From Curtobacterium sp. GC_Cur_3 (lineage in GTDB: Bacteria > Actinomycetota > Actinomycetes > Actinomycetales > Microbacteriaceae): DNA of 64,000 bases. The position numbers and the translations under genes were made by a program. Location of the stretch: assembly GCF_026544205.1 (NCBI RefSeq), contig NZ_JALNUI010000012.1:1-64000 (forward strand). Reading direction: 5' to 3'. The notes under the pieces were generated by a model. It saw only the letters and a program-made list of their open reading frames with translations, was not told where the DNA came from and searched no databases. Below, in pieces: positions 23,002 through 25,090 of the stretch (the stretch's first letter is position 1; every line of letters begins with the position of its first letter).

Positions 23002-23586
23002 ATGCACATCTCCTCCCGCCACGGCCGGACCGCCGCCTGGATCGCCTTCCCCCTCGCCGTCGTCGCCAGCGGTGCGCTCATCGCCACCGCGTCGTACGCC
23101 GCGTTCTCGGACACCACCGAGAACGCCGGCAACAGCTGGCGGACGGGTGCCGTCACCCTCACCGACGACGACCAGGGCACCGCCCTGTTCGACGTCGCCG
23201 ACCTCGTCCCCGGCTCCACGGGCTCGAACTGCATCACGGTGACCGCGAACACCACGAACGCGTCGACCGTGAAGCTCTACACCGCCGCTCAGTCGGACGA
23301 CGACACGCTCCCGAAGCACCTCAACATGACCGTGCAGCGCGGGTCGCTCGGCACGCCCGGGGACTGCACGACCTTCACGTCGACGTCCACCGTGCACGAC
23401 GGCACGCTCGCCGGGTTGCTGGAGCTCGACTCCTTCGGCGAGGGCCTCGACGCCTGGGCGCCCGCGACCGGCACCGCCAGCGCCACGTACCAGTTCGACT
23501 ACGACCTCGACACGGACACCCCGAACACCGCGCAGTCCTCCGAGGCCGGCACGACGTTCGTCTGGGAAGCCCAGACGGCCTCCTGA
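23002..23586 (+). CDS. TasA/CalY-like protein with SipW-dependent-type signal peptide
   Basis: A 194-residue exported protein. The N-terminus is basic (HISSRHGR), then a hydrophobic helix (about 12-31) ends in ATASYAAFSDTTENAGNSWRTG. This A-x-F-S-D-T ... N-x-W/F-x-x-G pattern is the hallmark of substrates of SipW-type signal peptidases (TasA, TapA, camelysin/CalY). The mature part is a Thr/Asp-rich beta protein with two Cys (in SNCITV and GDCTTF), likely disulfide-linked. TasA and CalY build amyloid-like biofilm fibres in Bacillus; whether this one polymerises is unknown. A SipW-type peptidase gene follows 85 bp downstream. Confidence 0.75.
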   Translation: MHISSRHGRTAAWIAFPLAVVASGALIATASYAAFSDTTENAGNSWRTGAVTLTDDDQGTALFDVADLVPGSTGSNCITVTANTTNASTVKLYTAAQSDDDTLPKHLNMTVQRGSLGTPGDCTTFTSTSTVHDGTLAGLLELDSFGEGLDAWAPATGTASATYQFDYDLDTDTPNTAQSSEAGTTFVWEAQTAS

Positions 23587-23671
23587 CCCGCCGCCCGGCG
23601 TGTCCACACCGACCAGCGCACGCCGACCGTCCCACGCCGACCCGTCCGAGACCGAGCACGAGGAGCAGCCG

Positions 23672-25090
23672 ATGTCGACCACCATCACCACCTGGCACCG
23701 CCGGTGCGTGGGTGACGTCCCGCGGCTGCTCCTCGCGGTCGCGGCGAGGACCGTGCTGTGGTCGGTCCTCCTCCTCGCCCTCTGGTCGAACCTGCCCGCA
23801 ATCCTCGGCTGGCACGTGACGACGGTGGTGTCGGGCTCGATGGCCCCGGCGATCCGGACGGGCGACGTCGTCGCGGCGATGCCCACCGGTCCGGACGCCG
23901 TCACACCCGGCCGTGTCCTGCTCGTCGAGGACCCCGACCACGACGACCGGCTCCGGCTGCACCGACTGCGCCGCGTCGAACCGGACGGGTCGCTCCGACT
24001 CCGCGGCGACGCCAACCCGGCGGTCGACCGGACGGCCGTGGCGCCCGACGCGGTGCTCGGCATCGGCGTGCTGCGGTTCCCGGGGGTCGGGCTGCCGCGC
24101 GTGTGGATCGCCGACGGCGCCTGGTCGAACCTGATCGCCGTCGGGCTCACAGCCGCCGGGTTGCTGCTGCTCGCCCGCCTCGACCGGCCGATCCTGGCGG
24201 GGGAACCGTGCCGGCGGTGCGGCACCCCGCGCTGGGACCTCCGCACGACGCCGATGCGACCCAGGGGCACGGGCACCGCGACCGCTCCAGCGGCGGTCCC
24301 CCTCGTCGCGGGCACCCTGGTGGTGCTGATCGGCCTCAGCACGGCGTTCTCCGGCGCCACGTTCTCGGGCACCACGACGACCAGGGCCGCGCTCGGCTCG
24401 AGCGAGTTCGGGTGCTTCCACCACGACCCGGCCGACGCGGTGCTCGCGTGGGACTTCGCGGAGAAGGACGGCACGCGGGTCGCCGACGTCAGCGGGCACG
24501 GCGCTGACGGCTTCTTCGCCAACGCCGGTGCCGTCCGGGTCGACGGCGACTGCGCGGCGAACCCGTCCGTCCAGCTCACCGCGGACGGCGCCGAGGGCTA
24601 CGCCGTGACCACGACACCGGTCGCAGCACCGAACGTCTTCACGATCTCGGCCTGGTTCCGCACGGACGTCGCCGGGGGGCGGGTGTTCGGGTTCGGGTCC
24701 GACCAGAGCCTGTCGTCGGCGTACCGCGACCGCCATCTGTTCATCGACACGGGCGGCCGACTCCGCTTCGGGACCGAGGAGTCGGGATCGCAGTTCAAGT
24801 TCGCCGTGACGTCAGCGGGACGCGTCGACGACGGGCAGTGGCACCACGCGGTCGGCACCTTCACGTCCGGGTCGATGGTGCTCTGGCTCGACGGCGAGCG
24901 TCAGGGCAGTCGCTCCGACGCCAGGAGCCTGCGCCAGTACGGCGGGTACTGGCGCGTCGGCCGACAGTCGCTCGACGGCTGGTCGGGCAGCGGGGCGTTC
25001 GCGTTCACCGGTGACGTCGACACGGTCCGCGTCCACGACCGGGTGCTCGACCCGGCAACGGTCGCAGCCGAGTACGCAGCGGGACGCTGA
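23672..25090 (+). CDS. SipW-type signal peptidase I fused to a LamG/concanavalin-like domain
   Basis: A 472-residue protein; ATG 23672 is preceded by GAGGAG. Residues about 18-45 are a membrane helix. The peptidase domain has the nucleophile Ser56 in VVSGSMAPAIRTGD, His97 in LRLHRL where bacterial peptidases have Lys, and Asp113 in RGDANP: the Ser-His-Asp set of the ER/archaeal SipW type. A second helix (about 142-158), a CxxC loop (EPCRRCGTPRW) and a third helix (about 208-228) follow. The third helix ends in AFSGATFSGTTTT, itself similar to a SipW substrate signal. Residues about 240-470 are a LamG-like beta-sandwich (FTISAWFRTD, GQWHHAVGTF, LWLDG). The usual SipW is under 200 residues, so the fusion is notable. 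Confidence 0.78.
   Translation: MSTTITTWHRRCVGDVPRLLLAVAARTVLWSVLLLALWSNLPAILGWHVTTVVSGSMAPAIRTGDVVAAMPTGPDAVTPGRVLLVEDPDHDDRLRLHRLRRVEPDGSLRLRGDANPAVDRTAVAPDAVLGIGVLRFPGVGLPRVWIADGAWSNLIAVGLTAAGLLLLARLDRPILAGEPCRRCGTPRWDLRTTPMRPRGTGTATAPAAVPLVAGTLVVLIGLSTAFSGATFSGTTTTRAALGSSEFGCFHHDPADAVLAWDFAEKDGTRVADVSGHGADGFFANAGAVRVDGDCAANPSVQLTADGAEGYAVTTTPVAAPNVFTISAWFRTDVAGGRVFGFGSDQSLSSAYRDRHLFIDTGGRLRFGTEESGSQFKFAVTSAGRVDDGQWHHAVGTFTSGSMVLWLDGERQGSRSDARSLRQYGGYWRVGRQSLDGWSGSGAFAFTGDVDTVRVHDRVLDPATVAAEYAAGR

Follow-up and report, generated by a model that had tools for sequence, protein, structure and literature searches.

A SipW-type signal peptidase joined to a LamG domain beside a TasA-like gene in Curtobacterium: a candidate peptidase-cargo polyprotein

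Background

Signal peptidases are usually regarded as shared enzymes that work on other proteins, and their active site sits at the outer face of the membrane. In a stretch of 64,000 nucleotides from Curtobacterium sp. GC_Cur_3 (positions 1 to 64,000 of contig NZ_JALNUI010000012.1, here called the window), a gene for a SipW-type peptidase continues into a further membrane helix and a LamG domain, and stands next to a gene for a TasA-like exported protein. Why would a signal peptidase carry such a domain as its own tail? Is the domain a substrate, freed by the enzyme to which it is joined? Or, does the helix stay intact and hold it at the membrane? The initial annotation of the locus had proposed that one enzyme releases both the TasA-like protein and its own LamG domain.

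In B. subtilis the gene order is tapA-sipW-tasA. Bacillus SipW, like the fusion as we read it, is an ER-type Ser-His peptidase with dedicated substrates of the TasA/CalY family (TasA, CalY and CapP, or TapA) and more than one substrate per enzyme, as described in two reports (PMC13082335, PMC10269814). Unlike the fusion, it is a separate protein; in the fusion the C-terminal part of the peptidase itself would be a second substrate. Among the open-access papers listed by our searches, judged by title and the start of the abstract, none dealt with a signal peptidase fused to its own cargo, most subscription papers and all preprints lying outside this scope. Of the papers listed for SipW and TasA in Actinobacteria, none had such a system as its subject by title. 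Here we investigate the fusion, its neighbour and their relatives through comparative sequence and structure analysis.

Results and discussion

Layout of the fusion

The fusion gene (P0001, 23672..25090, + strand) encodes 472 amino acids in the order TM1, peptidase, TM2, TM3, site and LamG domain, and is separated by 85 bases from the upstream gene for the TasA/CalY-like exported protein (P0002, 23002..23586, + strand, 194 amino acids). A GAGGAG ribosome-binding site (23660..23665, +), recognised by comparison of genus orthologues, is kept upstream of the start in 11/11 of them (own included) and so backs the start at 23672. An assembly or frame artefact was ruled out, since the fusion is present in 11 genus genomes and in several named families.

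All features of the fusion lie on the + strand. TM1 (residues 19-46, 23726..23809) and the SipW/SEC11-type peptidase domain (residues 27-145, 23750..24106; placed by profiles, a SEC11 alignment and structure matches) make up the N-terminal part, with catalytic codons for Ser56 at 23837-23839, His97 at 23960-23962 and Asp113 at 24008-24010. TM2 (residues 150-168, 24119..24175) is presumed to run from outside to inside. It is followed by TM3 (residues 208-226, 24293..24349), which would be the hydrophobic core of an internal signal, and by the putative cleavage-site motif A-T-F-S-G-T-T (residues 229-235, 24356..24376), located by conservation and a motif matrix. The predicted cut falls between A229, whose codon ends at 24358, and T230, whose codon starts at 24359, so that the predicted released cargo is residues 230-472 (24359..25087). 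The LamG domain itself (residues 305-465, 24584-25066) matches PF13385 with an E value of 1.6e-22 and 80.7 bits against a cut-off of 27.6. The AlphaFold model is confident for most of residues 310-470 and this region has jellyroll structure matches. Between TM2 and TM3, the presumed cytoplasmic loop carries a PCxxCGxPR motif (here PCRRCGTPR; residues 179-190, 24206..24241) that orthologue alignment shows to be invariant across 11 genus fusions.

The peptidase

The three catalytic residues are invariant in 11 orthologues, 18 diverse relatives and 22 LamG fusions. Pairwise alignment of 157 distinct SipW proteins, both fused and unfused, finds the Ser kept in 155, the His in 157 and the Asp in 157; one of the two Ser exceptions comes from a protein without its N-terminus (L172) and the other has Thr in its pairwise alignment (L216). 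On this conservation the reading as a dead peptidase was rejected. A Ser, His and Asp are the marks of the SipW and archaeal-ER type, P-type signal peptidases having Lys in place of His. A profile built from the 18 relatives reaches human SEC11C (E 1.7e-8) and SEC11A (E 8.8e-8) with the three catalytic positions aligned. From its sequence, then, the enzyme appears to be of the ER/archaeal kind and looks active. The human proteins, catalytic subunits of the signal peptidase complex, act within that complex and, unlike the fusion, have no cargo domain.

P0001 falls below the cut-offs of the family models. It scores 39.1 bits against TIGR02228 (cut-off 51.85), a cut-off exceeded by six of seven fused relatives scanned (L165, L183, L074, L211, L193 and L128, with L116 under it), and 32.4 bits against the Bacillus SipW equivalog NF046067, whose cut-off is 190. 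On these scores it is the same kind of protein as Bacillus SipW and is not filed as its orthologue.

An AlphaFold model made for residues 1-179, with a mean pLDDT of 84.5, superposes in its overall fold on LepB (3s04) with Z 11.3 and 1.9 A over 91 residues. Z is 11.5 for S. pyogenes SipA (4n31) and 10.2 for SEC11C, the latter yet at 8.0 A over 134 residues; Foldseek gives E values of 2.4e-4 and 2.6e-4 for SEC11A and SEC11C. As modelled, the peptidase part therefore has a signal peptidase fold. LexA, UmuD and lambda repressor appear to share the same core (Z about 8-10). These are self-cutting chains which, unlike the fusion, are soluble, DNA-damage-triggered Ser-Lys proteins with no signal peptide.

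The initial annotation had named the three catalytic residues, the added helix followed by a LamG domain, and the TasA-like gene alongside; all three readings hold.

The TasA-like gene

P0002, the presumed main substrate, begins with a SipW-type signal, for which a cut is predicted after Ala33 (SYA|AFSDT). It comes close to the relevant models, with 20.6 bits against PF12389 in a profile scan (Pfam cut-off 22.5) and 16.3 bits against TIGR04088, the cognate_SipW signal model (cut-off 19). Of nine relatives scanned, three score over the PF12389 cut-off, five fall under it and one gives no match.

Its distribution follows that of the fusion. The full-length fusion occurs in 11/36 genus genomes, and P0002 orthologues of at least 72% identity occur in the same 11; in the remaining 25 the best P0002 matches are at most 49% identical or absent. 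Across 53 distinct loci with an extended SipW, 50 have a TasA-like match (E 2e-24 or better) adjoining on the same strand. One of the other three has a weak TasA-like match (L166) and two have none (L172 and L173). In one of the 11 genomes (G006, locus L020) a frame change splits the TasA-like gene that adjoins the fusion, the two pieces being 85 and 64% identical.

The internal signal segment

Residues 188-245 are hypervariable in the 11 Curtobacterium orthologues, and A229, F231, S232 and T235 are the sole invariants there (11/11). Across the 22 LamG fusions F231 is invariant and A229 is at least 90% conserved. The initial annotation had seen a SipW-like cleavage context at AFSGATFSGTTTT. 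The second AFSG-like copy in it is conserved and that part stands; the first copy is not conserved among orthologues and was discarded as the cut site. The cut is predicted after A229, which puts Phe231 at P2', as in TasA.

How strong a mark is this Phe? SipW processes TasA, whose P2' residue is Phe, and E. coli LepB cuts it very inefficiently, a hindrance traced chiefly to Trp at P2 (PMC10269814). The fusion has Gly228 at P2 and no Trp, so in its case a Phe at P2' by itself marks SipW less strongly. The same report describes Pro at P1' as generally unfavourable (PMC10269814). A Pro precedes the aromatic residue in 14/17 FN3-like Curtobacterium forms (own C6 locus included) and in one LamG fusion (L130). 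This puts either Pro at P1' or the aromatic residue at P3', and cutting of such forms may be poor or fail altogether. The aromatic residue is missing from the site in L198 and L221.

The resemblance to the neighbours' signals was measured with a position matrix built solely from the N-termini of TasA-like neighbours and scanned over 50 extended SipW proteins. The best window in the whole protein lay at the end of TM3 in 44/50 (33/39 after thinning to diverse sequences). In 500 runs with column-permuted matrices the count averaged 19.4 and never exceeded 42 of 50, this high ceiling arising because the region is rich in Ala, Ser and Thr; this richness accounts for part of the 44/50 and not for all of it.

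Motif counts were made in 86 proteins, a set with some nearly identical members and with hydropathy peaks that are spurious in a few cases (L194, L199). A strict A-x-F-[ST] follows TM3 in 49/86, TM2 in 1/86 and TM1 in 0/86, and is found in 15/382 control windows; for the looser A-x-[FWY]-[STAGVR] the figures are 73/86, 6/86, 38/86 and 63/382. Arg and Lys average 5.9 in the 25 residues before TM3 and 0.7 after it, and 84/86 proteins are charged in the positive-inside sense. In P0001 itself there are five Arg in the 25 residues preceding TM3 and none in the last eight of these. The segment thus appears to have the architecture of a SipW-type signal, with a basic n-region, a hydrophobic core, a small P1 and an aromatic P2', which is a descriptive criterion and not a curated family. 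TIGR04088 finds no match to the internal segment of P0001 at E 0.01; the segment resembles a SipW-type signal in sequence and is not filed in this N-terminal family. The whole-protein AlphaFold model has pLDDT below 50 at residues 189-211 and 219-247, and is therefore silent on the geometry of cleavage in cis.

A three-gene counterpart in the same genome

The second Laminin_G_3 match of this genome lies on contig 45 (L008), in the gene order TasA-like, SipW, LamG. Here the LamG protein has its own N-terminal SipW-type signal, ending SGFSAQ. SipW and LamG genes of this arrangement are adjacent on one strand in 30/30 genus loci (own included; 29 others), and with the chosen start codons they overlap by 4 bp in 29/30; in two of the 30 the examined stretch ends short of the TasA-like gene. 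Across 31 long same-genus matches, homology between the fusion and the separate LamG proteins starts within fusion residues 171-232, and in 30/31 the start lies ahead of the site at 229.

In sequence, then, the fusion looks like the last two genes of the contig 45 operon in one chain. The operon has the same three parts in the same order, including a LamG protein with a SipW-type signal; unlike the fusion unit, it keeps them as three separate genes, and its SipW (P0003) falls in a different clade of the SipW tree and has an extension of about 97 residues. The fusion unit can accordingly be read as a two-gene version of a TasA-like/peptidase/LamG set that is found elsewhere as three genes. The extension of P0003 (L008:6460-7344, - strand) lies past TM2 and includes a last hydrophobic helix (residues 267-285); similar tails are seen at other genus loci.

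Spread and cargo exchange

The initial annotation had treated one protein and suggested a search for other SipW-LamG fusions with adjacent CalY/TasA-like genes. Such fusions exist, and the window protein is one member of a wider fused architecture. With 299 genomes searched, the fusion profile matches at near full length in seven genera of the family. In named genomes, 29 of 32 loci found are SipW-LamG fusions, 28 of them by BLAST coverage and one (L165) by Pfam. They come from Curtobacterium, Frigoribacterium, Cryobacterium, Arthrobacter, Pseudarthrobacter, Phycicoccus, Flexivirga, Geodermatophilus, Modestobacter and one Intrasporangiaceae MAG, and the fusion of one Modestobacter MAG has two LamG stretches. 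A truncated relative (L172) is in a MAG labelled Acidobacteria, by wrong binning or transfer.

LamG is not the only cargo. An FN3-like domain follows the helix-and-site segment in at least 17/36 genus genomes, the own C6 locus (P0005) among them; the C-terminal domain of P0005 and its relatives has no notable Pfam match, and 'FN3-like' is a reading rather than a profile assignment. Ice_binding cargo occurs in L074 (E 1.3e-26), Ig cargo in L193 (Big_7, E 4.8e-26) and L197 (E 3e-5), RCC1 in L211, and WD40 with fn3 in L216. CBM5/12 in L176 and L178 is under the cut-off (E 0.003-0.004) and only suggestive, and the tails of L182, L198, L213, L214, L217 and L221 have no match in the Pfam scan.

One genome (G394, L183) joins its peptidase to a TasA-like domain, matched with 71 bits and an E value of 1e-22 in a set of 31 sequences. 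The next gene, with a 4-bp overlap, encodes what by eye is a LamG-repeat protein, whose signal has no aromatic residue. TasA-like and LamG domains thus swap the 'fused' and 'separate' roles, as expected if both are substrates. Read by eye, the genes beside the SipW-TasA fusion of this genome (L204:4749-13493) encode a LamG-repeat protein, a GGDEF-like protein and a TasA-like protein that bears a long Pro-Ala repeat.

A quick tree of SipW places the LamG fusions and the FN3-like fusions, intermixed, in one clade of 54 rows (SH-aLRT 99), with the Ice_binding form outside it. The make-up of this clade is biased, because its members were collected by similarity to fusions; L004, L027, L039, L040 and L042 carry FN3-like tails, L036 is out of frame, and L166 and L172 are truncated.

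Searches with the peptidase alone brought in unfused relatives as well as other forms. Among the best 29 matches at the order level (own locus left out), 11 have helix 3 and cargo, five have helix 3 and a short tail, two have LamG with neither TM2 nor TM3, and 11 have no recognised helix 3, among which L194 and L195 carry long Pro-rich tails and L199 contains a masked stretch. Among the best 28 at the phylum level, eight carry cargo and 20 do not show a recognised helix 3 with cargo. The two forms lacking TM2 and TM3 (L201 and L203) have GTTGAAFVAQ between peptidase and LamG. The short-tailed forms (L177, L179-L181, L200) keep helix 3 and the site and have only about 17-20 residues beyond. In L177, L179, L180 and L181 (g143) the 20 or so residues past the site are similar to one another and could be a small released peptide or a relic.

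A proposed mechanism and its alternatives

Comparison gives good support for LamG as SipW-type cargo that follows an internal signal of its own. The enzyme, which has on its tail a further export signal and then a domain of sugar-binding type, probably frees its own cargo, and cutting by the attached peptidase is the simplest reading of the predicted site. We therefore think it likely that P0001 is a signal peptidase-cargo polyprotein that would free its own LamG domain and process its TasA-like neighbour. The N-terminal half would be a SipW/SEC11-type peptidase held by two helices, with its domain outside the membrane. TM2 would return the chain inward, and the cytoplasmic loop would lead into helix 3, which as an internal SipW-type signal peptide would take LamG out. 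A cut at Ala229|Thr230, by the peptidase of the same chain or of a neighbouring copy, would free a 243-residue LamG protein and leave a three-helix peptidase, which would also trim the product of the upstream gene. The output would be one LamG per peptidase, with the TasA-like subunit expressed freely.

What might the products do? In B. cereus, SipW processes TasA, CalY and also CapP, an assembly factor (PMC13082335), so it is a reasonable guess that LamG is an accessory of a TasA-like fibre. It may serve as the accessory, the tip or the anchor of a surface or matrix fibre whose main subunit would be the TasA-like protein; the suggested matrix or adhesion role draws on the TasA-like partner and the LamG fold.

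Could helix 3 instead stay uncut? The protein would then work as a LamG lectin or adhesin that is anchored in the membrane and linked to the peptidase, perhaps holding the enzyme at the cell wall or the growing fibre. L201 and L203, with peptidase and LamG in one chain lacking TM2 and TM3, would fit such an arrangement, as would the Pro before the aromatic residue in 14/17 FN3-like forms. We nevertheless consider it unlikely: the site holds the sole invariant residues of a hypervariable region and resembles the signals of TasA-like neighbours, the separate LamG paralogues bear N-terminal SipW-type signals, and the four g143 genomes, with only about 20 residues past the site, have no domain to anchor.

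Nor is the attached peptidase the only candidate for the cut, as TIGR02228 gives three further matches in this genome at 45-78 bits (C17, C6 and C45) and a fourth, weak one at 20 bits. LamG might be released in trans by one of these, the attached peptidase serving TasA-like proteins only. This seems improbable given that the fusion and the P0002 orthologue co-occur in 11/36 genomes and that fused LamG and FN3-like forms share one SipW clade; a lasting fusion to the substrate of another enzyme would also be odd. That helix 3 and the motif are an intramolecular pseudosubstrate restraining the peptidase in a zymogen-like manner, with the cargo a passenger, is very doubtful: the short-tailed forms, which retain both with almost no cargo and so would allow helix 3 a regulatory function, and the self-cleaving LexA, UmuD and lambda repressor among the structural matches speak for it, and against it the cargo is often a large exported-type domain swapped for other binding folds, and relatives read as unfused show no recognised helix 3.

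If the polyprotein reading is right, it would provide a built-in stoichiometry between an enzyme and a surface subunit, and the self-cleavage would serve as a natural reporter for signal peptidases of the ER type. A domain fused to the peptidase is a candidate SipW substrate, which offers a route to unknown SipW cargo. The fusions and their neighbours point to TasA-type systems across Actinomycetota. We lean towards a class of self-processing peptidase polyproteins in this phylum, in which a SipW-type enzyme with an internal signal would carry swappable cargo (LamG, TasA-like, ice-binding-like, Ig, RCC1, WD40, FN3-like, perhaps CBM5/12), usually beside a TasA-like gene, and would yield enzyme and accessory subunit 1:1.

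Genome context

A further SipW gene, on contig 17 (L009:5457-8240, - strand), comes after three genes that read as encoding signal-bearing, substrate-like proteins. In the window, a sigma/anti-sigma-like pair (25172 to about 26100, - strand) adjoins the two-gene unit. We take it to be a SigH/RsrA-type sigma factor with its anti-sigma factor, and a pair of this type is near the fusion in 13/17 named loci examined.
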